DNA of 64,000 nucleotides, taken from NCBI GenBank assembly GCA_026075535.2, contig AP026543.1, positions 3,844,001 through 3,908,000 of the forward strand. Reading direction: 5' to 3'. Under the pieces are notes generated by a model. That model was not told the origin of the DNA, ran no database searches, and saw nothing but the letters and a program-made list of their open reading frames with translations. Numbering within the stretch: the first letter of the stretch is position 1; each line of letters starts with the position of its first letter. A program made the translations under genes and the position numbers. Of this stretch, positions 8,161 through 28,396 are shown one piece after another. The DNA is from Tricholoma matsutake. Its lineage: Eukaryota > Basidiomycota > Agaricomycetes > Agaricales > Tricholomataceae.

Positions 8161-10874
8161 TTAGTCAGTATCTTCATCAGAGTCATCATTGCTGGAACTA
8201 CTGCTCGAATTGGAACCACTTTTCTCTTGAACATCATCCACATCATCCTCAACTGAAACCTGTGGCTTTGGGACAGGTGAGAACAACAAACCCTTAAGAA
8301 CAGGTTTATTCCATTGGGTCCATCACTTCTCACCCTTGGCCAGATCCCGCTCTTTCTCCCAGGCTTTCACATCAACCTGCCATTGTGCTCTGATCTTCAT
8401 GTTCTCTGCCTTACATTTCTTTTCCAACAACTTCCACTCATTCATTGCTCCAGTGCACTCCTCCCAGCTGGCTTTCCTTTTCTTGACAGCCTCTGCTGTA
8501 GCTGTTGCATTGTTATGAAATTCAACAATGCATGCCACAAACTTTTGTGATGAGAGCAAACGAGGAAGACCATTGCCCACAAGATGACCTTTCTGTTGAA
8601 TACAGTGATGAAACACTTGCTACATAGTCCAACAGACTTATTACTATACTTGTTAGATTGTAGATATTATGACTGAAATTTGTTTACTTCATATCTCGCT
8701 TTGTACTATAGCTATTACTTAGATTTTTGGACCCAGATGTAGGGGGTAACGCAGACGCGATATAGTGGACACCTAGTTTCACACCTCGTGGTTTCCTGGC
8801 ATGACAGGAACAAACAAAAGCAAAATCCTACTATGTCTGGGAAACTAGACACGAGATTGATTTGGATAAAGTGCAATACACATTACTATTATTGAACCTG
8901 TGTTATAAGTGTGTTGCAGACAGTTGACTTGAGTTGCTGACTAGTGTTATACACTAGTAGAATTTGTCATAAGCTTTAACACTTTCTGCTTTCTCTTCTT
9001 GCTCTCCTCTTGTGCAGCCAGTTGTCTGCGAACAAGATCACAATAGGCACCATTGAGGACAGCTGCAGATTGCATTGCTACGATCTGTTTCTTTTGTTGC
9101 GAAGTTTTGATGGTGGCCATGTTTAGTGTGGCTTGAAGTTTTTGTTCCATTTCTGTAACTGGCACAACATCAAGAAGTTCATAGTGCGCCTTTTCTGGAG
9201 ACACACGGTTGGGTGACGTGGGATGGAGCTGCAACGTGGATTGAACAGGAGAGGATGTGATGAGAAATGACATTGATGTATGTCAGAGGCTCTGGATTGC
9301 AGTCTGAATGGGTGTCGCAAATGGATTCTGGGATTGTGAGCATGTCGGTGTGCATGGTTCATCATCCTGTGTTCCGTCATCTGAGCCACTTCCTAATGAA
9401 GCTGCTCTTGCTTGGTGATGAGCCTGATGGAACAAGTTAGTCACAATACACACTGGTGTTCCTGGGGGAACAGGAAGGTGGCCTCTGCACGATGTTTCCA
9501 AACTGGGAGCCATCATTGCTGGGGCTACAACATCATGGTTGAAGAGCCAAACTCCTGTTTTCTCGAAAGCCATCTTCACGTTAGCACAGGTTAGTGCCCA
9601 TTTATGCACTGCTCCATAGATGGCCAAGAAGTTTGTCTTTGAGATTTTCTCCCGCTTTTCCCTTTCCCACCTATCCTTCTCCTGTGTCCAGTACAGCTTC
9701 AGTGTTGCAAAGATAACAACATCAAGGCCTTGGTAGACATGTGTGCCATGTGCAGCATAGCAGAGAATGTGAATCCAGACTGCCCGAGCAAATTCGAGGA
9801 AACCACGTGTGTAGTGGGAGTTGTGACCATCCAGGAGGAGTACCCATGCTTGTCCCTTCGCTTTCCATCTTGTTTGCTGATCAAAATCTTTGATCCACTC
9901 AATCCCAATCTCACCATCTGTCCAGCCCTTCTTCAAGTGACCTATTCTAAAGACCATTGAATTAGCTGTTATTCAAGGCATCAGTGAAAGACTTTGTACA
10001 ATGCCTCAGCTGGATTTTCCTGATCCCATTTCACCTGGAATCCTTGTCCTTTGAAGATAACAGAGGGTTTGAGGGATGAGCCATCTGCACAGATGGTAAC
10101 AATAACGGTGGTGTTTTCATGCCCACCATCGCCTTGCTGATGTTGTGTCGTCTTTCCGCTAGCCCTGATGACTTGCTGTTTTGTACCACCAAGTGACATA
10201 AAACCACATTCATCAGCGGCATAGGTATTCTCTTTCAAAATTGGTTCCCAGTCCTCCTCATCTTCCATGGTTTTGGACCCTCCATTATCGAGACTATCTG
10301 TGCCACCATGCATGACTGTACCAAGAATATCAAACCATTGGGTGTTTGTAATTGTATTGACAGCACGACCATGAGTGTTGTCCAGCAGATGGGCCCAATA
10401 CATTGTAAGCCAGTCTGTGTGCTTTTCAACAAAGTGAGAGGTCCAGCATTGACCAACCCCTTGTGCTAGAAATTTATCTCCCAACTGCGCATCACAGATC
10501 TCATTGACATGTTCTCGAAGCCTTGCATGGCTGAGTGGAAACCCACAGGATGCAACCTCAATAGCATAGTCAATGATGATGTCCACTTCCCCTGAAAGAA
10601 GCCAACCCCTGCTAGCATTTGAGATGCTCTTTGGTGTCCCTCCATTGGCAAGTCTTCTTACTGTGCTATAGTCAAGTTTCACCTCTTTTTTTGATTCCAC
10701 CCAACATTGATGCTGAATCTCTTCACAGACTTTTTGAAGACTCATTCTCTTCCTTCCATTCTCCTCCCTTTGCTGTTCATGTTTGTAGAGGGCAACTGCA
10801 CGAGCATATAGTCCATCCTGGGTTGTCCGTGCCACTTGTAGTTTTCTGGTGTTAGATGTAGGACGCCCAACCAT
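8161..10874 (-). pseudogene. pogo-family transposase (CENP-B-type HTH, DDD catalytic core)
   Basis: This is a cut-and-paste transposase of the pogo branch of Tc1/mariner. It starts at 10874 with 'MVGRPTSNTRKLQ', followed by an HTH region and a CENP-B-like domain. The catalytic core has 'YAADECGFM' (first Asp), 'LLLDGHNSHYT' (second Asp) and 'YQGLDVVIF' (third Asp). A 53-bp GT-AG intron at 9947-9999 restores 'NPAEALIGHLKKGW'. The C-terminal part is a coiled, charged region ('KAWEKERDLAKGEK') and an acidic tail ending near 8161. It is broken by an extra ~330-bp block at 8617-8946 and a stop after 'AKGEK'. All three acidic residues persist, so inactivation came from disruption rather than active-site loss. 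Confidence 0.85.
8617..8946. other. Unexplained AT-rich block inside the pogo transposase C-terminal region
   Basis: The coding similarity stops at 'KQKVLKLM' on one side and resumes at 'KGHLVGNGLPRLL' on the other. The ~330 bp between have no long frame. Edges read TGCTACATAGTCC on the left and GTTATACA on the right, so a solo LTR is conceivable, but I found no convincing 5-bp duplication. An unspliced long intron is another reading. Confidence 0.4.
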
Positions 10875-11004
10875 GATAGGGGCGAGACCTGGCCATCAAT
10901 TTTTTTTTTTTTTTTTTGGACAACTTCCCAATTCGGTAGATGGGATCCCAATTCAACGTGATCGAGTGAGTTTAGTGTGACACACCAAAACAAGGTTAAA
11001 AGGT

Positions 11005-11077
11005 AGCCTGGTACTCGATGCGTGGGTAAGATGGGCTTCCCCAAATTCTCATGATAATTCAAACTCCACGCTAATGC
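11005..11077 (+). repeat. Left terminal inverted repeat of the two-gene element
   Basis: Pairs with 23183-23253 in inverted orientation. Most of the roughly eight differences are transitions (T/C, A/G), as expected from CpG decay. It ends about 90 bp upstream of the helicase start, so it probably carries promoter sequence as well. Confidence 0.8.
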
Positions 11078-11165
11078 CGGATACTCGCCGAACAGCATGT
11101 GACTGAATGTGTTCATGTTTTCTCTGTTTATTCTGATTGCCATGCCGTTTCTGCGCATCCCATGT

Positions 11166-12989
11166 ATGTCAGATCCCCCAGAACCTAGTCTGAGCAATCC
11201 TGATGGACAGAAACTTGCTCGACAGCTGCTCCACCCATTTCTAAACCATGATATCCACGATTACATCCTGGAAGGCATTTGTAAAGCTGTGGATGGAGTC
11301 CATGTTCTTGTCATTGTGAGGACTGGAGGTGGAAAGACAGGGCTGTTCTATGGTTATATATTACTTCTCAAAGAGCTGAGCAAGCTGGAATCTTGCAAGA
11401 AGAGAGGGATACCCAAAAACCCAGTTCTAATTGTCATTTATCCAATGAAGGGACTCAAAGAAGAGATGGTGAGCCTTAATCACTTAACCTCTATATTCAC
11501 ACATTTCCTGTTGATTTCGGCAGGAGAAAACATTCCAGAAGCTTGGTATCCCAACTCTGGCCATCAACAAAGATACCCTTGCCCATGCTCACACTCATAA
11601 TGAGAATCTGTGGGACAAGGCCGAGATGGGAGTCTCCATGCTTCTCCTGTCTCCAGAGCAGCTTTCATCAAGAAGTTTTGATCTTCTCTTGCAGAAACCA
11701 TCATTTTCAACACGTATTGCTGGGTTGGGAGTGGACAAGATACACCTGATACTCGATTGGGGAAATACAGGTTTTCGAGAAGCATTTCGTCTCATTGGAC
11801 TGATGCTGGCCTTTCTCCCCCACTCAACCACATTTATCGGTACCACTGCAACCCTGCCGACACACCAAAAATTGCCACTACTATCTACACTCGGCCTTAA
11901 AGCCAGCTCATTTTTTTTCAGTCGACGTTCAAATTTTTGGGCAGACATTGGCCTCACATTTCGAGTCCTCTGTCATGGCCTTGGTGGGTGGCAGTTCCCA
12001 GATCTCAGGTGGATAACTGAAGGAGATCGTAAAACTATTGTCTACTGTGGCACCATCTCATTGGGTTTCTGTCTCTTAGTCTATCTGTGGCACTGTTCGC
12101 CACCTGAGAGTCGTAGCTCTGTCATTCAATTATACTGCTCCCTTTGTTTCCCATCTTACAATGAATGCACTCGTCAGCTTTTTGTTGAGGATCCAAATTT
12201 TTGTGTTTTGATTGCAACTGACTCTTTGAAAGTTGGTAATGACTTTCTGAATGTTGCAGATGTCGTGGTTCTTAATGCTAAGGACCCTAATGATATTGTT
12301 CAGAAGACTGGTCAGGCGGGATGCATGCATGGTCTTGTTTGCAACCCACAAGGCATCGTTTACATTACAAAAGCGCAGGTTGACCACGCAAAATCAATGA
12401 CAGATGGAAATAACAACCTGAAAGGGGAGAGAAGCACCAGGGGGACAGATGAAGAGCCCATGTCATTGTGGCACCTTGCTATCAGTCAGAACTGAACATT
12501 CAGTTTGACAACCCCACCAACGACCCCCTCTGCCACTGCGACACTTGCCTCCAATCGCCCCCTCTGCTACAATCAGCGACATGTAACTGCAGTGGCTGTA
12601 ATCCTGAACCCGAATTACCTCTGCTACCCTGTTCACGAGCCCACTGAAAGGTTGTTCCCATGGCTGATCGAATAACTGATGAGATGTGCGAAATCGGAAT
12701 GCAGAAATTAGAGGAGTTTCATTGGAATCTCTGGGACCACACACATGATGTGTCATTGCGATATCTGCCACCATTGACATTCCTTCCCGATTGTGTCACC
12801 AAGAATATCCTCAACAACATCACCTCAATCACCACTGTCGAGATTGCCGCAGGATTCGTGTGGCATATCTGGCCTCTCAAGGGCCATCACGATGATCTAT
12901 TTGCTCTAATTAAATCCCTTCAACGCAGCTTTGCAACTATGCAAGGGGGTCTGAGATCTACGGCACAGAAAGCATCAACTGAGGCATGA
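11166..12989 (+). pseudogene. RecQ-like (SF2) repeat helicase, decayed
   Basis: The likely start is 'MSDPPEPS' at 11166; an upstream ATG at 11109 is in frame. A 55-bp GT-AG intron (11469-11523) joins 'GLKEEM' to 'EKTFQKLGIPTLAINKD'. Motif I is intact (VRTGGGKTG). Motif II reads VDKIHLILDWG, where active relatives have DE-IH, so the catalytic Glu is now Lys. Motif III is GTTATL. Motif VI reads QKTGQAGCMHG where QK-GRAGRDG is expected, so two arginines are lost. After 12475 the frame shifts into a Cys-rich zinc segment 'CHCDTC...CNCSGC', then to a C-terminal segment 'LPDCVTKNILNNITS' ending at 12989. All the key losses fit CpG transitions. Such helicases are multicopy in Agaricomycetes. Confidence 0.8.
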
Positions 12990-13340
12990 AAGTAGGTCTG
13001 CATACTATTCATCCTTGTGACCAGTGGATAATGCCTTGCAGTGGGCCGGCCCAGGATTCATCAGTAATGTTCTTCCCCCCTATGGTGTATGACAATTTCT
13101 TTGCAAAGATTTCCATGGCTGTACCACCTCCCGGCCCAGAGATAGGGAGAAAGCACATTGCACTGCAGGCCTCAGGTCCCCCCCTCTGCAGATCGGACAC
13201 TAATGACACCTCTTTTGGTCCACAAAATGTAAAACTCAACTGGTGAGTATGGAACCCATCTGGCGATCTAAGATAGGATGACGTCTCGAATCAAATTTCA
13301 TCCTGACACTTATCATGGTTACAGCACAACAAGGAAAACA
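12990..13340. other. Spacer between the two convergent genes
   Basis: It lies between the 3' end of the helicase (+) and the 3' end of the DUF6589-type gene (-). Short frames on both strands show no recognisable domain. Probably 3' untranslated sequence. Confidence 0.4.
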
Positions 13341-13945
13341 TCAATCAGACTTCCTGATCTGCTCGCTCCCAGTCCTCTGCCTCCTCTGCACCAATATGAC
13401 CTGTTCATCCACCTCAGGTTCGTCATCCAAAGCATCCGGCTCCAATAATTCATCTTCCTGCTCTGGGATTTCATCTTTGTCCCCATCTGTTACATCCCTT
13501 ATATCAATAATGAGATTTCCATTTTCTATTCGCATTGAGCCTGGGGTGAATGTATTGAGATCTTTGTCAGGTTCCATTTCCATGCTGTTGGGCTCGTCAA
13601 CAGTTCCAAATGCCACAACACCTTCGTTCGCATCTGCAGTCCTTGGCACTTGGCTAGTAAGACCATGGGGCCTTGTCATTTCTAGGATCCATGCTTCCAA
13701 TTTCCCTTCTTGAAGCTGTGTCATGCCTTTACCAAAATTGTCCACATGTAAGTGATCACGTCCATATGTGCGTCCTCTTCTGAACAAATGCAGTTCTTCA
13801 GCCTGGTAAATATCCATCAATGTATGTAGTTCAGGGTTTGCATGTGTTCGACATGTTTGCCCAATCTTTGAGCAAGCCCAAGGCTTTTGTGAAGTTCCTT
13901 TTTGACACAGACCAAGCGGTGAACATTTGGGGCAACAGTGTTTTG
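13341..13945 (-). pseudogene. C-terminal part of the DUF6589-type gene, cut off by gypsy-B
   Basis: Read leftward from 13945, one open frame gives 'HCCPKCSPLGLCQKGTSQ', then 'HTLMDIYQAEELHLFRRGRT', 'HLHVDNFGKGMTQL', and an acidic tail 'DEIPEQEDELLEPDALDDEP' ending at 13341. The duplicated TTTTG (13941-13945 and 20784-20788) lets this piece be joined to the upstream piece at 20784-23119 once gypsy-B is removed. The conserved DREHL-like box (here GRDHLHVDNFGKG) is a usual feature of this family's C-terminus. Confidence 0.65.
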
Positions 13946-14347
13946 TGTTAGGGCGACACCCACTATCTGCTAGCTAAGACCTTGCAGGTTCTCTCTACAA
14001 GAAGGGGGCAGGATCTGCACACATGATTGGGGAACTGATGGTTTTGATGTGAGGGGCTATCAATAGGTGAGTTTGTTGAGATAGGCCATTCACACCACAA
14101 GCATAGGTGGAATACCTAGGAGAACACAACTGGGGTCCCCTAGGCGCATATTTAGGGTTTATATACTATGTTACATATATTGTACATTGTTGTTACTGAC
14201 GCACTCATACATGCGCATACATATTGATGTGTGCAAAATAAAATTCTCATGCTATCAAAGTGTAGCGTCATTTGGCGTCATGTAGTGTAATTTGACATAA
14301 TAAAATAAAAATGAAATTCTATTAGGTAATGGGGTGGTTTTATAACA
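13946..14347 (-). repeat. 3' LTR of gypsy-B
   Basis: 402 bp, about 94-96% identical by eye to 20382-20783. Differences are mostly transitions, and several remove CpG (for example CTGCACACATG here against CCGCGCGCGTG in the 5' LTR). It contains AGAACACAACT at 14121-14131, the sequence complementary to the predicted primer site. Confidence 0.9.
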
Positions 14348-14358
14348 TTACCCCCCTT

Positions 14359-17300
14359 TTATGCCTCGACTTCCAGGCAAGAAAATATTGCATCTGTCCC
14401 CTCTGTGAAAATTTGGTAAGGCCAGAATCTCATCCCCTCATACATGGTATGATACACCATTCTTGCAATGTGACGTGGAGCATTCAGATTATGTTTAAAG
14501 AATTGGGCAATCGTGTTACATGCTTGCTTACAATTCTCTTTGGGTTCCCACAAATTATTTTTGTCGGTATAGTTTTTCCACTTTATTAAGAACTCCAATT
14601 TGTTCTGTCAAAGACGTGAGTCTAGAATTTCTTCAACTATGTATTCTGGAGCACCTTCTACTATTATCGGAGGTTGCGGAGTAGTTTGTTGGCCAGGAAT
14701 AGTGGGTGGGCGGTAAGGGCATAGGTGGGATACATTAATCTCAGGATCAATCTTGAATGATCGGGGTAATTTTAGCACTACTGCATTAGGCGAGATCACT
14801 TTAGAGATCATATATGGGCCAACTTGTTTCTCTGTAAGTTTCCTCAAAGGTCGTGGAATATTCAGGTCCTTGGTACTTAGCCACACCAAGTCACCAACTT
14901 TGTACTCTGGAGCGCATGCTCGAGTACAATCCGCGTGTCACATCATGTCATCACGTGCTTTCTTCGATGCCGCCTCTGCTTCCTCTTGTACCTTTTGCAT
15001 CTTAGATACAAAGTCTTCTACCAACTGTACTTTGACTTCCCTTCTGGGTTCTACTCCCATGCGAGGATGATATCCATAATTTGCGAAAAAGGGTGACATA
15101 TGAGTAGCCGAATGGAATTTGTTATTGTGGGAAAATTCGGCAATTGCCAGCCAGTCAGTTTGTCGGTAGTTGACAAACATACATAGGTACTGCTCCAACT
15201 CCTGGTTCATTCTCTCTGTCTGCCCATCAGTCTGCGGGTGATATGCCATAGATAATTTAGTTTGAATTCCCAATATGTTGTTCAGTTCTCGCATAAATGC
15301 AGAAGCAAATTGTGGTCTGCGATCAGAGATAACGGTATCGGGTAACCCATGTAACCGCCATACCTGATTTAGATAGAGGCACGCCAAGCCCAATGATGAG
15401 GTTTCTGTAGTAGTAGGAATAATATGGACCTCCTTTGTAAAGTGGTTGCATACTACAAATATTGCATTGTACCCTTGAGCTTCGGGTAATCCAATAATAA
15501 AATCCACAGATATATCTCGCCACGGCGCTTTAGGTATATAGGGTTCAGCATTAATTTTCCTGCAGGTTTTTCTGGAAATTTCTTCCCCCTCATGCAAGTA
15601 TCACATCCATCCACATACCCCAACACATACTTCGAAATTCTGGGCCACCAATAATTTCTCATTACTAATTCCAATGTCTTCGATCTTCCTGGGTGTCCGG
15701 CAGTCAGCGTATTATGATGTAATCAGACGATCTCCCTTCGCAACTCCTGATCCTTTGGTACATACACCTTTCCTCGAAACAACACCAACCCTTGTTCCTC
15801 AGCCCATTCATCTCCTCTAATATTACCTTTCTTCTCTCCCTTCAGAGCTTTCACAGCTTCCACTACTTCATCATCCATTTCCGAACATTGTCTAATTTTA
15901 GACAACATTTCTGTTTCCAAGCTATCTATTAATAGATGCCCTTGATGCATAGCACAAATGCGAAAGTATTCGGGTTTGAGTAAGGTAACATTCTTATTGT
16001 CCTCCTCCACCCCCCTTTTATGATCAATACATCTGGATAATGCATCTGCTTTTCTCAGTAAGCTTCCTGCTTTGTGGACCAAGTGAGAATTGAAACGTGA
16101 TAGGAATAGTGCCCAATGCGCTTGCCGGCGATTAAGCTTTTTAGCAGACATGAAGTATTGCAGATTTTGATGATCCGTCCAGATCTCAATCTGATGCATA
16201 CATCCCTCCAAATAATGCCTCCATGCCTCCAACGCTCGTATTATCCCCAACATCTCTTTGTCATGCACATCATAATTCCTTTCCACATCATTCAACCCTC
16301 GGGACAGATATGCACAAGGATGCCATTTGTCATCTTTGCACAGCATTGATAATACCACTCCAGTAGCAAAATCAGATGCATCTGATTCCATTCGTAAAGG
16401 GCATGTGAAATCCACTGGGGCTAATATTGGTCCCTCCACAAACTTCCTCTTCAACTCCTCAAACACTGTCTGCTGCTGCTCTCCCCACCTCCACACTACT
16501 CCCTTTCGCATAAGGTTATGTAAGGGTGCAGCAATTTTAGAAAAATTGTGCACAAAGCAATGATAATAATTTGTGAGTCCCAAGAAGGCTTGAACCTCCT
16601 TGACACAGGTGGGTGCAGGCCAATCTGTGATCACCTGTACCTTGATCAGATCCATTTTGATCCCGTCAGGGCTGATCAATAATCCTAGGAACTCAATCTT
16701 GCTTGCCCCAAACACACATTTCTCTGGTTTCAAAAATAGATCATTCTCTGCTAACCTCCATAGCACCTCCTGCACTATCACCTCATGATTTTCTTCATCC
16801 TCTATGAATATCAGAATGTCATCAATAAATATTATTACCACGCCTTTGTATATTATGTCCTTGAAAATGTCGTTCATCATATTTTGAAAGGTCGGGGGAC
16901 TATTAGTCATCCCGAAAAACATGACAAGTGGCTCGAAGGATCCTCCACACGTGGCAGATGCGGCCTTCCACTCATCTCCTTTCTTTATTGGTACATTGTT
17001 GTATCCCCATCATAAATCCAATTTTGTAAAGACCTTGGCTTTTCCCACCTTGTCAATTATTTCTGAGATCAACAGCAGGGTACACATTCTTCACTGTCCA
17101 CTCATTCAGATACCTATAATCTGTACACATCCTCTTCCTTTGGTCTTTCTTTGGCACGAAGAATATTGGTGATGTCTGCAGTGATTTCAAAGGTTGTATG
17201 TATCCTTTGCGCAATTGCTCCTTCAGGAAGGCATCCACTTCTTCTTGTTCCATTGGAGATAACAGATATACCTTTGACTTCTTCGGCACAAACCCTGGCT

Positions 17301-18216
17301 TCATCTCAATCACATGATCCCATGGCTTCCGCACTGGCATTCGCTCAGACTCCTTCTTCTGGAACACTGACAGATATTCATGATACACTTTTGGCACCCA
17401 TTCCTCCACTGGCTTCTCCACCTTCACGATATTCTTGTCCCATGACTGTCCTCCACGAATTGCTCTAAAGGTTTGCTTCTGCTCTTCTTTCTCAATCATG
17501 ACTGGAACTTCCCCATTTGGCATTTCCTCATCCTCCACTTCCTCCATCATAACAGAATACTTCCTCAGACATTCTTTCTCTCTCTTTTTCCTTTTCTCCT
17601 TCTTCATCTTCCTCCCATACACATTACATTCCTTAGGACAATGAGTCATTTGTACTTTCCCAGTTTTCCAATCAATTTCAGGATTATGCTTCCGTAACCA
17701 CAGACATCCTATTATTAGATTGGTTTTCCCAAGATCACACACTTTGAATATGGCTCACTCCTGATGCTCCTGATACTTTAGTACCATAGTCACCTCCTCC
17801 TTAATAGTTCCTCCACAATTGACTGTTCCATCAATATTGTACACCATTATAGGTTGCACCAGCTTGCATGTGTTAATACCGTTTCCAGTAATTAAGGACT
17901 GATTAATGAATAATCCTGTAGCACCACTACCAAGCAATGCTTCCACATCAATTGCTACATGTGTGTCCACTGTCTTCAGTCCCACAGTCAAGGTGATTTC
18001 GGGTTCTATTCGCGCAGAGTGAATAAAGAATTTAGGGGTTTTCGGAAATGGCACGTGACAATTTTTGTCACGTGATTGACAACGGTTGTACTCCTCTTCA
18101 TCACGTGATTCAGAATGGTTGTACTCCTCCTCGATTTCCTTTTCTGATTTAATCTGGGTTTCCTCGGATACTAATACATTGTAACGATTCTGGGTCACCA
18201 ATGGGGAAACCTTCAC
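14359..18216 (-). pseudogene. Pol polyprotein of gypsy-B (PR-RT-RNase H-IN-chromodomain), broken
   Basis: The protease at 17755-18216 has 'LLGSGATGLFI', where the catalytic Asp of DSGA is now Gly. Its C-terminal part is followed by the RT start ('VPKKDQRKRMCTDYRYLNEW') at about 17053-17742. RT continues at 15723-16922 with the box VIIFIDDILIF (FIDD in place of YLDD), then RNase H ('MESDASDFATGVVLS', 'YDVHDKEMLGIIRALEAWRH'). Integrase spans about 14938-15674: zinc 'CDTCMRGKK', core 'DISVDFIIGLPE', 'VISDRRPQFASAF', 'HPQTDGQTERMNQELEQYL'. The chromodomain ends at 14359 ('FLIKWKNYTDKNNLWEP'). Stops and shifts near 17742, 17050, 15720 and 14930 break the frame. Confidence 0.9.
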
Positions 18217-19310
18217 TGGGACTCTTCCACAAAATTCTTCTGGTTGCCTTCCTCTGGCTTCACTTCCTCGATTGTAGCTTCCCTAATCTTTCTTTTCTGC
18301 CTACAATTCCTAGAAATGTGTCCTAACTGCCCACAGTTAAAACATTTAAGTGGGGCTTGTCTCCCCGCTTGATCAACCTCCATTGCCTCTGCTGGTGCTG
18401 CTGACTCCATAACTATAGGTGTCACTGCCATGGCCAGTGGCTGTGCCCTCGGAGCTTGCGCCTGAGGCACCGTTCCTTTCTCAGACTTTCCTCCTGATGA
18501 CTTTCCAAATTTACTACTTCCGTACATCAACTTTGACTCTGCCTGTTCCTGCTGATATTGCCGGTCAAGGTGCATTGCCCAATTATACCACTCGTCCAAC
18601 TTCTCTGGCATAGAAGGTAGTCAGTAGATAGACTTGAATAAAGAGGGATTTAATCCTGCTTTCAAAAAGTCTACCAACACGGCTTCTCCCATATCCGTTT
18701 GCAAAGCTTCTGCTTTGAACTGCAAAATAAATTCATCCACCGTTAGGGAACCTTGGCGCATGGTCTTTAATTTAGCATTGGCTGTTGCCTTTGGATTAGG
18801 GTCTCCAAACTTTGCCTCCAATCTCTCCAGAAATTCCTTGAAGGTTGCAAATGGTTTATTTCCTGCGGCAATTTGATTAATAGCCTCGTTTCTCCAGAAC
18901 TGTGCTTTCCCCCCCTGAATGTATGAGAGAGCAAACATAATCCTAGACTCGGCTGTATGAAACTCTGGCTTCCTCCCATGGATGTACAATACTATAGAGC
19001 TGATGAAGGATTTTGTATTCTCCATGGTCCCATCAAAGATTTGCAGGGGTGCATACTTAGGTAAGCACACTTTTCCATTTCCAGATTTCTCTGCCGTCTC
19101 ATCCTCCTGCGACATCCACTCCACCATCTCCTCCATCTCATCATCTCTTTCTCCTGTCGTCTCTGGCTGTACTTCCACTTGTCTGGGCTGTGATGCTGCC
19201 AACACTGACACTAATTGCAACATTTGCACTGTAAGTGCATCAATTTTTGCCTCTAGTGCTGGTGTGGGAACAGGATTAGGACTGGGATTAGAAGTTGAGG
19301 GTTCAGACAT
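18213..19310 (-). pseudogene. Gag of gypsy-B with one stop
   Basis: Starts 'MSEPSTSNPSPNPVPTP' at 19310, with a coiled N-terminal part ('EAKIDALTVQMLQLVSVLAA') and the Gag core ('SYIQGGKAQFWRNEAI', 'FLERLEAKFGDPN'). One stop after 'SLFKSIY' (near 18615) is followed in the same frame by 'PSMPEKLDEWYNWAMHLDRQ' and a CCHC zinc knuckle CFNCGQLGHISRNC near the end. The Gag and Pol frames meet at 18213-18216. Confidence 0.88.
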
Positions 19311-19622
19311 AATGGTAAAATCTGTGATGAATCACTTCTTCAACAAATTCAAGATTTGTGCTTCGAGATCTCTCCAAATGTTTACGGGTCACATGATCAT
19401 TCGTCGATCATTTGTCAATGGTTCATCGATCGTTCATCATTCGTCGGGTGCCTAATTTGACACTTCGGATCAATAACCCTTCCAACAGTGCCTGATCTCG
19501 GGGATAACACTGAATTTGGCTTGTAACTAAAATAGTTGTCCGAATAGAGTGATGTAAATCATAACTCCACCAGATCCAATCGGTTGTCTGGTTGCAGCTG
19601 TCCTAATGACAAGTGCTGCCTC

Positions 19623-20190
19623 AGGACCCCTGAAATCTCTACCAAATCCCTGAGCCAGGTGCGGATAAAAATTGTGTAAAAATCAGAAAATCCTACAGGC
19701 CTATGTGGATAAAAATTGAGGATTTTGGCCAAAATCCCTGGGGTCAAAGTGCGGATAAAAATGGGCAGACAGGCAATGGGCCTGATCCAAATGCGGATAA
19801 AAATTGACAAGACACGGCCAGATATATGACTAGGACTGGACACTTTTCAGAATCCTGAAGGATGGTTCTCCTACATAGTCAAGGCAATTACATCTTTAAA
19901 CAGAAGTCTTGCGTCAAAGAAGGTGATGGGGAAGAGGATTAGAAAGATTTAACTCGTGCAACATGTGTAATGTGTATCACAGTACCTCTAATGACTGTAT
20001 AGAAGGTCCTGCCCCTGTGGCATGAAAAATTGAGGATTTTACCTATGCCTGAGGTCAAGTGCGGATAAAAATCTGGACCTTTGGGGGCTGAGGTGATTTC
20101 CAGATAAAAATTGCCCAAAGTGGTGCGGATAAAAATTGCAGAAAACTGACATTTTTGGATCAGGGATTTGGTAGAGATTTCAGGGGTCCT
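19623..20190. mobile_element. MITE with 31-bp perfect TIRs and seven GTGCGGATAAAAATT motifs
   Basis: The 568-bp element lies in the 5' untranslated region of gypsy-B. Flanks GCTGCCTC (19615-19622 and 20191-20198) are an exact 8-bp duplication. The TIR begins AGGACCCCTGAAATCTCTAC, and about 31 bp match perfectly. Inside are at least seven near-copies of TGCGGATAAAAATT, all in the same orientation, clustered toward both ends. There is no coding sequence. The exact duplication and TIRs suggest a fairly recent insertion; the 8-bp size fits hAT. Confidence 0.9.
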
Positions 20191-20368
20191 GCTGCCTCTC
20201 AATCACTGGCAGTCACAATGTAAGGTGAGGCCTGGCGTCAGCTTACAAAAGAAAAGGTAGATTATGTATATAAGTACTTCTGGCTTGTGCCGAAAGGATG
20301 AGTAATCAGATGTGGTGCGGTGAAACAATGATGTATGTGCAAATAAGAGAAGGTGCACTGATATGGGA

Positions 20369-20379
20369 AGTTGTGTTCT
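20369..20379 (-). promoter_or_regulatory. Predicted self-priming primer-binding site of gypsy-B
   Basis: On the RNA-sense (-) strand, the sequence two bases after the 5' LTR is AGAACACAACT. Its exact complement AGTTGTGTTCT occurs once within each LTR (20557-20567 and 14121-14131, read on -). In Tf1-type elements the first ~11 nt of the mRNA fold back onto such a site to prime reverse transcription. No tRNA-type TGG primer site is present here. This puts the start of R at about 20567. Confidence 0.65.
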
Positions 20380-20381
20380 TC

Positions 20382-20783
20382 TGTGATGGCGACACCCACT
20401 ATCTGCTAGCTAAGACCGTGTGGGTTCTCTCTACAAGAAGGGGGCAGGATCCGCGCGCGTGATTGGGGAACTGATGGTTTTGATGTGAGGGGTTATTAAT
20501 AGGTGAGTTTGTTGAGATAGGCCGTTCACACCACAAGCATAGGTGGAATACCTAAGAGAACACAACTGGGGTCCCCTAGGCATATATTTAGGGTTTATAT
20601 ACTATGTTACATATATTGTACATTGTTGTTACCGACGCACTCATACATGCACATACATATTGATGCATGTGAAATAAAATTCTCATGCTATCAAAGTGTA
20701 GCGTCATTTGGCGTCATGTAGTGTAATTCGACATAATAAAATAAAAATGAAATTTTATTAGGTAATGGGGTGGTTTCCTAACA
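20382..20783 (-). repeat. 5' LTR of gypsy-B
   Basis: 402 bp, TGTTAGGAAACC at the RNA-sense start and CATCACA at its end; retains more CpG than the 3' LTR. It is followed upstream (+ side) by the duplicated TTTTG at 20784-20788. Confidence 0.92.
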
Positions 20784-23119
20784 TTTTGAACATATGGGTT
20801 TTCAAACCCCGTATCCTTGTGTCCAATGTGCTTGTACATCTCATCCTGGATTTGTTCTTGATATAGATCTCCTGGGACCCAGTGACCTGCTAGACCAGAT
20901 GGATTGACCAGCCAATTTTCAAAGACCAATGTTCGCAATTCAGGATCGGACTCCAGTTCCAGGTTGCAGAACATTTCTAGTAAATATGATGCATATTTGT
21001 TGTGGGATGATCCAGTGAACGTAAAAAGCATCATCTGCATTCTATCAGGTCAATACAACACTGTCTTATTGTGATCAACAACAGAACTAACCTTCATGCA
21101 TTCCCATACACTTCCAATATCCCCATCTGCGACAGCATATGTGGTGTGTCACGAAATCATTGTATTGTAAATGAAACAGCATGATTGCCCAAGTGTGGCA
21201 TCTCCTGTGAACATGTTGTTGCCCTCTGCTTCCTTTCCTTTATTTTTGCGTGAGTTCTTCTTTTTCTGCCTTGTTTCAATGCCAACAGAAGATTCTTCTG
21301 TTGCAGGCTGCTCCCATGAGCTTCCCTCTGGGATTTGGGTGTTGGGTACCGCATAAGTGCCTCGCAATGCACGATCAAATGCACCAGGGATGCCGTACAT
21401 TTCCTGTAACATTGTGGCCTTTTCCATGAGGATCTCTATTGTTGGCAACAACTCTGCCGTTGCCATCAGCTCAAGGTGCTTGAGTAAGTCCCCATTCTTT
21501 CCACATAATATAATTCTACTCAGATGAATTTAGCCAGCTTGTTTCACCATATGCAACATCACACATACCTCCAACAATCAAGCATACGAGCATCAAGAAC
21601 CTGATATGCCAGCTGTGAATATGGGTAATAATCTACTTTTTTTAGATCACTGGGTGCCTTGCGTTTGATTTTGTTTGCACTATGCCCCAGGCTTGATGGA
21701 TCTTGACTGGTAAGGCTATCCCAATGGGCCTCATAAATGCGACTGAGATCCGTCCACTCAGTATGCCAGATCTCCAGAAGCGGCTCCAGAATGTCGAGCC
21801 GTTTATAGGCAGTTTCATGGGACTGCAGGTAATTTTTGAGCTGGACCATCCTCTCATATGTTAGTCCATCACCCCCAGTGAGAATGAGCCTTGGTGTATA
21901 TGATGATTCAGTTTGACCAATGTGATGATAGATCATGTGGAGACTTTGTGCAAGTTTGCTGGTGACTGTTTTGTTCTTTCCATTTGTAGGTAGGGGGTAG
22001 ATCTGGCTCTTCCATGGATGGGCATGATATTTCTGACCCCTGGTGTTATACAACTTTTGAACATCGGCTTTGTATGCAGCCAACTGTGGAGCAAAATCCA
22101 CAATCACACAAACCCACTGTAGCATGCATACAAGATCAATATGTGTGTGGTCAATGAGACCCCAAAGCTCCTTGACTGTCAGGGATTTTCATTTGTTTTC
22201 AGTTATGTGATGCCATTTGCTGATCAAGTCAAGTGCAGAGGGATTAAAACCCTCGACTTGGATTGCTGTTGATGCAGTTCCTGTAATCATATGCGCCTCT
22301 CTCCCAATGCGGAAGTTGCATGGCCACACGTAGCTCTGTACGTTGTCTAAGCAGATTCTAACTGCTGAGTCAGGACTGGTCCCTAGGCTTTTGACTACAT
22401 TCAAATCATGACACGCCAGCATATGCAATGCATTGTGCACTGCAGTATAGCTGGTAGAAGTTCTGAGCTGACTGTCATATGCAAACAAGTAATGGTTCGC
22501 CCGACATGCAAAGTACAGAAGGGCTTTATCTGCGTCTTGCTGGCTTCAAGGATTGGAACTCATGTTCAATGGAGAACATTTCATCCCTATGGTCTCTTTT
22601 GGGTATTCCCCATGGGCTCTTCACCCAGATTTCAACAATTTCAGCAGGCCCATATTTGCAGAAGCCACCAAGAAACCTACTTGCCATTTTTGCATGAGTC
22701 TGACTTCTTTTCTTGATTTTGTGCCTGCCCTCATCTTTGGTGTGAAATGCATAATATAGCAAGTCACCCATGGTCCAATTGACCTCCTTCAGCAAGCCAA
22801 AGACCTTGTCAAGCTTCTCTCGGACAGTCAAGTATGCCCTGGTTGTGTTCTCCCAATCCCCAACCAAATTGTCTGCGGAAATTGGGACAGGTGATGGGGC
22901 TGTGGTTGGATATAGTCTGGGTGTTTGGAAAGGGGTGTCCCACAGAGTCTCGGTGAATGCATATGGAACAGCATGCGGCATGAAGGCATAAAAGGGAAAT
23001 GGGTAGTAGCTCTTAAATGGTATCTGTCCAGCGGTCTGTGGTTTGATGGTGGGTAAAACATCAATGTCCATTTGCCTGTCATCCTCGGTGTTAAGATCGT
23101 CTTCTCCACTTCCAGGCAT
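20784..23119 (-). pseudogene. DUF6589-type protein, N-terminal and central parts, broken
   Basis: Starts at 23119 ('MPGSGEDDLNTEDDRQMDID'). Blocks in order: 'FGLLKEVNWTMGDLLYYAFH' and 'MASRFLGGFCKYGPAEIVEIW' (N-terminal repeat-family domain), 'HMLACHDLNVVKSLGTS', 'CLDNVQSYVWPCNFRIGREA' (DN box), 'ILTGGDGLTYERMVQLKNYL', 'LDILEPLLEIWHTEWTDLSR', 'DARMLDCWRY', and 'LELESDPELRTLVFENWLVN' near 20900. It joins the 13341-13945 piece after removal of gypsy-B. Frames change at about 22530, 22190, 21559 and 21149; some of these may be introns. DUF6589 proteins are multicopy in Agaricomycetes with unknown function. The DN and GGDGLTYE boxes suggest a metal-dependent nuclease fold, which is inference. Confidence 0.7.
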
Positions 23120-23182
23120 GAATGGAATGATTTCTGAGTTGATATGTTATCCGTATATGGGAATGAGACGGCATCATTCGGC

Positions 23183-23253
23183 ATCCGCGTGGAGTTTGAA
23201 TTTCCGTGAGAATTGGGGGAAGCCCATCTTACCCGCGCGTCGAGTACCAGGCT
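23183..23253 (-). repeat. Right terminal inverted repeat of the two-gene element
   Basis: Reverse complement of 11005-11077 with about eight mismatches. It ends about 65 bp before the start codon of the DUF6589-type gene at 23119, mirroring the other side. Both repeats therefore probably act as promoters. Confidence 0.8.
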
Positions 23254-23664
23254 TTATAATAGTGAACGACTATCTTCACTAATACTACAAGACGGCTTGC
23301 CAGGCTAGTTGAAAGGCTTGTTTGACTTTGCCAGCCTTTTCCAACGCTCCCTCAACCATCATGTCATGAATGCTAGGTCATAGCAGTGGAAGGAATACCA
23401 TGTTTTTCATTTGGTCTCTTTCAATTTCGGTTTACTCAAATATTTCTACTGTGTCTGCAACATTATTATTTGACTCAATTTGACAATCTCTCGATCTTTC
23501 AAAAGATCATTGAGTAGGATATTCTCTACACTCCTGATTACCTTGCATATATGCTAGTTGGTTAGATAAAAGATGCATCTCAAAGTTTGTCTTACTGGCA
23601 AAGTTTAGAAATCAAAATTGAAGCCATGGGAGCGTTTTGTTTCATTGGCCCGTTGAACACTGTA

Positions 23665-27275: not shown

Positions 27276-28396
27276 TCATTTCGTCGATTCGAATGGCAGG
27301 CGGTCAAGCTGCGCCCTACCGTCATCAATCCATTCCTGTTTCACCAGCTTCTCCTTCTCCGCAAAATACAGCCGATATACCAACTTAATCGTACCCTCGC
27401 TGACGCCCGCAACCGCGCTGATATCCCTAACGGATTTCACCTTGCCCAGTAGATGACAGGTAAAAAATATCGCACCACCCGCGATGGATACGGGGCTTCG
27501 TCCATCTGCGATCCCGTGTTTGCGCGCGGCGATGATGATGTCGGCACATATAGCCTGGACGTTCGCGGGCAAATCGAGGTGATTACAGTACCGTACTAGA
27601 AGGGTCTCAGGACCGCTGGAAGGTGACTGGGCATTAGCGTTGGTCTGGGCTGCAGTAGCGCCTGGCGAGAGGTTGAAAGCCTGCTCCAGTGCTTTGTAGC
27701 ATTGTCCCAAAACCTTCTTCGAAACATTTGTCAAGTTGCAGATCTCGCGGAACGTCCGTGGAACATGTGCCTGTCGGCATGCGATAAATATACACGCAGC
27801 GATGACAGCTTCGAGGGGTTTCCCGCGAAGCAATTTTTCTTCGTCCGAACGCTTATACAGCTGTTTCGCGATGTCGCTGATCGTCTTTGGAAGTGAAAAT
27901 TGGTCGCACCAAGTGGAGATATCGCGGAAAGCGGTTAGGAGATTACGCTCTGAACGGGAGTTCTGAGAGCGAGATGCAGCACGCTGGAGCTCACGGGCAA
28001 TGCCTGAGCCGCCGTCCCGAAAACTGATCACGGTGTCAAGCTGCTCCATGCCTTCCATCAAAGGGTCCGATGCAGCACCAACACGAGACGGATCGTCTCC
28101 TTCGTCGTTGGCAAAAGTCTAATTGAACAAGGTAAACTATTGGCACCAAAGATCAAAGCCCAAAAAGGAGGCCTTACACGCCATTCACTCCTTGTATCCA
28201 CGATCCTATCACCCAAAACCAAACCACAATTCCCACACACGAGGTCTCCGCTACCAAATTCTTCGACAATGTTCGGGTTCGGGTCTCTGCACTCAGGGCA
28301 GATTAAGCGAACAGCAAGGTCAGGCCCAAAAGATGGCTGGGCAGCTTTTGTTTGTGGAGCAGCAAGGGGGAAGGGCTGCGCATATGCCATGGTCAA
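27276..28396 (-). CDS. SUA7: Transcription initiation factor TFIIB
   Basis: General RNA polymerase II factor that bridges TBP and polymerase. The N-terminal zinc ribbon has CPEC (about residue 33) and CGNC (about 54), then the B-finger region ('[20 protein letters not shown]'). Two cyclin-like repeats follow: '[20 protein letters not shown]' in the first and '[20 protein letters not shown]' in the second. One intron at 28119-28177 (GT-AG) lies right after SEWR. Start at 28396 (MTM) or 28390 (MAYAQPF); stop at 27276 after 'RLPFESTK'. The length is usual for the family. Confidence 0.95.

Follow-up and report, generated by a model that had tools for sequence, protein, structure and literature searches.

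DUF6589 and a convergent RecQ-like helicase as the two genes of a probable AcademH-type DNA transposon in Tricholoma matsutake

A 64-kb stretch of the Tricholoma matsutake genome (contig AP026543.1, positions 3,844,001 to 3,908,000; the whole stretch is called the window below) carries a RecQ-like helicase gene and a DUF6589 gene between inverted terminal repeats. Together they very probably represent a damaged copy of an AcademH-type cut-and-paste DNA transposon with two genes, DUF6589 being its DDE transposase. This reading is grounded in the unit itself, its ends, the 9-bp target duplications, short copies that have moved, the linkage of the two genes across the genome (161.0 Mb in 13 contigs), the kinship of the helicase to RecQ proteins, and the predicted fold of DUF6589. 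The features of the element are listed in window coordinates; P0124 is the DUF6589 relative used for the structure model and for residue numbering, and L and C numbers denote loci and contigs of the same genome.

10995..11003, no strand: left copy of the target-site duplication, GTTAAAAGG, 8/9 identical to 23308-23316
11004..11082, plus strand: left (short) terminal repeat, beginning TAGCCTGG; inverted arm, with its terminus set by copies elsewhere
11103..12495, plus strand: RecQ-like helicase gene, exons ~11103-11468 and to 12495, intron ~11469-11522, start codon provisional
13341..13940, minus strand: C-terminal tail of the DUF6589 gene, past the gypsy insertion; P0124 residues 682-770 match 13937-13671, and the L046 homologue is continuous
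13946..20783, minus strand: gypsy-type long terminal repeat (LTR) retrotransposon inside the DUF6589 gene, foreign to the transposon itself; its LTRs are 93% alike
20784..23146, minus strand: upstream part of the DUF6589 gene, comprising the N-terminus and almost the whole of PF20231; it contains a stop, a frame change and a deletion
23176..23253, minus strand: right terminal repeat, inner part; inverted arm
23254..23307, minus strand: 54-bp outer part of the right (long) end, finishing CCAGGCTA; common to other elements in the genome
23308..23316, no strand: right copy of the target-site duplication, GTTGAAAGG, pairing with 10995-11003

The initial annotation of this DNA had described two converging genes between inverted repeats of ~72 bp. 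The plus-strand helicase and minus-strand DUF6589 gene do lie inside such arms (11005-11082 and 23176-23253; 78 nt, 88% complementary), but the right end of the element is found 54 bp farther out. This boundary was moved from 23253 to 23307 because L041, L044 and L045 stay similar to the window up to the latter position and no further; the whole element thus spans 11004-23307, and a scan of the window for ends paired by a 9-bp duplication returned this single pair. The right end is therefore long (~132 bp, the 78-bp arm with another 54 bp outside it) and the left end short (~78 bp, the arm alone), the short end reading as though it had lost the outer block between two AGCCTGG words. A hairpin within the 54-bp block did little better than shuffled sequences (z from -0.8 to -1.4, 4/4). 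The word TAGCCTGG occurs five times in the window, against 1.26 expected by chance, and those at 27551, 39636 and 44104 were rejected as element ends, as no known end matches there.

The gypsy insertion (reverse transcriptase, RNase H, rve and gag domains) is flanked on both sides by TTTTG (13941-13945 and 20784-20788), and L046, on contig C8, continues through the insertion point without an insert, which upholds the earlier view of one DUF6589 gene split in two. Once the gypsy is taken out together with one of the two 5-bp duplicates, a unit of 5,461 bp remains, in keeping with the ~5.4 kb first estimated.

Searches of the genome gave 10 matches to the left arm and 36 to the right end. The sample of end-bearing loci comprises 17 distinct loci with element-type ends (L051 and L066 being the same locus), located by the window's own ends, so that elements with other ends would escape. 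Both ends are present in 10 of the 17 (the window, L041, L044, L045, L051, L054, L056, L061, L062 and L063), and all 10 complete elements carry a 9-bp target duplication, exact in six and with one mismatch in four. Duplication length was tested on nine of these elements, whose ends had been fixed by similarity before the flanks were compared: with at most one mismatch, 9 bp fits 9/9, other lengths from 4 to 14 fit no more than 1/9, and wrongly paired flanks fit in 0/72 cases. L061, which stood outside this test, was added by a scan using the duplication as a criterion, and its second end was also seen in a separate end comparison. The target duplication that the initial annotation had proposed to look for is accordingly 9 bp.

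The complete copies other than the window are short (0.18-1.74 kb). Three of them, L041, L044 and L045, are 92-93% like the window and retain the starts of both genes inside the same ends, with the middle gone; only for these three, and in part for L042, does the sequence show an origin as two-gene deletion derivatives. A genome search for inverted pairs of the repeat had been suggested at the outset, and such pairs do exist elsewhere, with both gene starts in three. The shared ends, with the linkage described below, support the original claim that both genes belong to one mobile element. L061 (1501-1678) is a 178-bp copy with a long end, a short end and the duplication TCTTTTGGC, exact over its 9 bp; no helicase or DUF6589 piece was found in it in the gene-piece comparison of short copies, the sole comparison made. 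As it is little more than both ends, the ends alone may suffice for being moved, and the short copies, as their duplications imply, must have been moved by a source acting in trans. One long and one short end are found in all 10 complete elements. In three copies (L054, L056 and L062) it is the long end that has the helicase start, the reverse of the window arrangement, so the asymmetry follows the ends and not one gene. The insertions at L044, L063 and L042 have near-identical flanks (CAAATATCRACATCTCTC followed by a G run), which suggests repeated insertion into one host repeat.

Linkage of the two genes was examined from both sides. The DUF6589 domain gave 14 genomic matches at 13 loci, and the window helicase gave 65 matches at 59 loci. 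A helicase lies within 5 kb of 7 of the 13 DUF6589 loci, namely the window and 6 of the 12 others, all six convergent; with loci spread evenly, about 0.04 linked loci would be expected among the 12, and the binomial chance of six is ~2e-12. On the helicase side, the 30 best of the 65 matches fall at 27 loci, and these were examined by comparing 81 DUF6589 proteins with the locus DNA (E <= 1e-6); the other 32 of the 59 loci, which are weaker, were covered by coordinates only. DUF6589 sequence was found near 17 of these 27 loci, the window included, 15 by a match in the locus DNA and 2 by coordinates (C8:5979641 and C6:11075237), with a convergent arrangement in 16 of the 17. The situation that the initial annotation had set against its own proposal, most copies being unlinked, was thus not encountered among the loci examined. 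At L067 a convergent pair can be seen whose DUF6589 is 32-40% identical to P0124 in pieces, so the pairing predates the window's family.

Seven linked loci, L026 (C1), L028 (C4), L032 (C2), L035 (C5), L036 (C5), L037 (C11) and L038 (C5), are copies of one segment, ~94-97% alike over 2.2-3.4 kb, in which the 5' part of the helicase stands convergently against the 5' part of DUF6589; one copy lies 40 kb into its contig. L017, the same locus as L042, has a DNA match to the end of DUF6589 only and was counted as unlinked. The six DUF6589 loci at which no helicase was detected (C10:10701879, C2:9666198, C4:13071549, C1:2572426, C7:8409149 and C10:3971219) are possibly single-gene relatives or host-adopted copies, and that at C4:13071549 sits in a 491-aa open frame.

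Within the window, PF20231 (DUF6589) is matched on the minus strand at 21559-22188 (E 8.3e-59) and 20714-21049 (E 1.3e-28). A confident model of P0124 resembles DDE transposases in structure comparison, with Hermes best, and the closest solved folds are those of hAT (Hermes) and the P element, which have an RNase H core with a helical insertion. The initial annotation had guessed that DUF6589 might be the nuclease or transposase and had asked for a check of an RNase H-like fold; the model, being RNase H-like and of the DDE type, favors that guess. A D, D, E triad is conserved in DUF6589, and D203, D361 and E656 (P0124 numbering) are the putative catalytic residues; the corresponding stretches LDNVQ, GGDGLT and GDLYQE are retained in the window gene. 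A DUF6589 profile found nothing among PDB sequences at E <= 1, and in a Pfam scan of 15 of the 67 aligned DUF6589 proteins, none of the 15 matched any family above cut-off except DUF6589 itself. A further protein search aimed at animals (7990 candidates scored) returned 70 proteins, of which the named ones are all from Agaricomycetes, as judged by name. DUF6589 is widespread in Agaricomycetes, its proteins being annotated as hypothetical genes in many mushrooms. The word DUF6589 was absent from the literature collection searched (5.39 million papers), and within that collection alone a link between DUF6589 and transposons seems not to have been named.

The partner gene is a RecQ-type helicase by sequence. 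Its intron has GT..AG ends, read by eye. DEAD and Helicase_C were matched weakly, under the Pfam cut-offs, and the larger exon matched 27 PDB entries at E <= 0.1: 13 WRN, 8 RECQ5 (Q5), 4 RECQ1 (Q1) and 2 named just "ATP-dependent DNA helicase". Motif II reads VDKIH in the window and VDExH in 3 of the 4 other copies covering the motif, L039 also having K.

In the proposed mechanism, DUF6589 would bind both ends (TAGCCTGG...CCAGGCTA; ~132 bp and ~78 bp), excise the element and join it to the target with a 9-bp stagger, which would leave the 9-bp duplications. The convergent RecQ-like helicase would be an accessory protein of the element, one that probably unwinds the ends or intermediates, or assists the copying by which the donor site is refilled. 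The window copy itself is not functional, because of the gypsy insertion, an in-frame stop at ~22189, a changed frame, a probable deletion near 22546 (from comparison with L046) and the altered helicase motif.

These properties recall AcademH, for which the source is reportedly Kojima 2020, Mob DNA 11:15. AcademH, known here from citing descriptions, is likewise a DNA transposon of fungi that carries a helicase, makes 9-10-bp duplications and has a low copy number in Basidiomycota: 9- or 10-bp target duplications are given in an excerpt of PMC10045372, and linkage to helicase domains and low copy in Basidiomycota in an excerpt of PMC10799480. The duplications of all 10 complete elements agree with that length, a helicase gene lies within the ends with 25 of its 27 PDB matches named as RecQ-family, and a DDD/E transposase would be provided by DUF6589, going by its predicted fold and conserved triad. 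The family name AcademH is inferred from this agreement. The initial annotation overlooked that helicase-carrying fungal DNA transposons with 9-10-bp duplications (AcademH) are already in print. New here are the assignment of DUF6589 and the asymmetry of a long and a short end.

Several known groups were considered and rejected. The hAT elements, whose core the DUF6589 model resembles, make 8-bp target duplications, a length that fits 0/9 tested elements with at most one mismatch; no hAT or P match was found among the 15 proteins scanned against Pfam, and neither family is known to carry a helicase gene. MULE/MuDR elements have ~9-bp duplications and long inverted ends, as does the window element, and were set aside as none of the 15 scanned proteins, out of 67 DUF6589 proteins, contains a match to the MULE domain (PF10551). 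KDZ and Plavaka elements were rejected by duplication length, which is 8 bp for Zisupton and 2-3 bp for Plavaka in excerpts of PMC12730594, against 9 bp in the window family.

Of the rival explanations, the most probable, though still unlikely, is that DUF6589 elements form a transposase superfamily of their own, which joined independently with a RecQ helicase and is AcademH-like in working only. Such a superfamily might be defined by a DDE core, an invariant H in an ExxH-like motif, the convergent RecQ helicase and deliberately unequal ends. In its favor are the absence of Pfam matches other than DUF6589 in the 15 scanned proteins and the case of KolobokH, a different superfamily that has likewise acquired a RecQ helicase (excerpt of PMC9587614); the accessory gene, the 9-bp duplication and the host group nevertheless all fit AcademH. 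KolobokH itself, a Kolobok transposase with a RecQ helicase, is a very improbable identity for the window element, even though it is a DNA transposon reported only from fungi, with its RecQ helicase downstream of the transposase domain in that excerpt. The window element instead has two converging genes on opposite strands. Kolobok elements duplicate TTAA, which is absent here, and the duplications of differing sequence in 10/10 complete elements, all of 9 bp, contradict this identity.

A helicase gene within a mobile element could also bring to mind a Helitron-like rolling-circle element. Helitrons have no inverted ends and no target duplication, and with both present here, together with a RecQ-type helicase and a partner modelled as a DDE transposase, this explanation is barely conceivable. 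Hardly more credible is the suggestion that only the helicase is a component of the mobile element, DUF6589 lying next to it through chance nesting. The 10 of 27 helicase loci with no detected DUF6589 neighbor and the five short copies with a helicase piece only would suit it, but it is contradicted by L041, L044 and L045, which enclose both gene starts, and by the excess of convergent linkage at the other DUF6589 loci (6 of 12 against ~0.04).

Other observations weigh against the AcademH-type, two-gene transposon preferred here. At seven of the 17 end-bearing loci (L042, L043, L046, L058, L059, L060 and L065) the DNA examined shows no second end paired by a duplication, and L051, L054, L056, L062 and L063 hold a helicase piece with no DUF6589 match. 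No helicase match lies near 6 of the 13 DUF6589 loci, a second helicase query adding none, and 10 of the 27 helicase loci examined have no DUF6589 protein match. The 17 linked loci are not independent, as seven are copies of one repeat, and one of them, L027, is not convergent. With plain Foldseek, no PDB entry reached E <= 0.001; the first-ranked hit was a designed protein (0.0089) and the second Hermes (0.045). E656 was picked from aligned-range end offsets and the residue numbers of Hermes and RAG1 rather than from a residue alignment, and the AcademH label was assigned by description.

Two further features of the window were noted. Inside the gypsy, positions 19622-20191 hold an element of ~570 bp, probably a small non-autonomous DNA transposon; its inverted ends measure 36 nt (97%), CTGCCT stands on either side of it, and GCGGATAAAAATTG-like repeats lie within. 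To the left of the transposon, a 304-aa minus-strand open reading frame (9981-10895) looks like a pogo/DDE_1-type transposase by eye; it had no Pfam match at 0.001.

If the assignment is true, DUF6589, a large Pfam family of unknown function, gains a function as a transposase, and the mushroom hypothetical genes that contain it would be transposases, to be masked as such. The element also explains part of the abundance of RecQ-like helicase copies in the genome, and it provides a system in which the need of a DNA transposon for a helicase can be tested.

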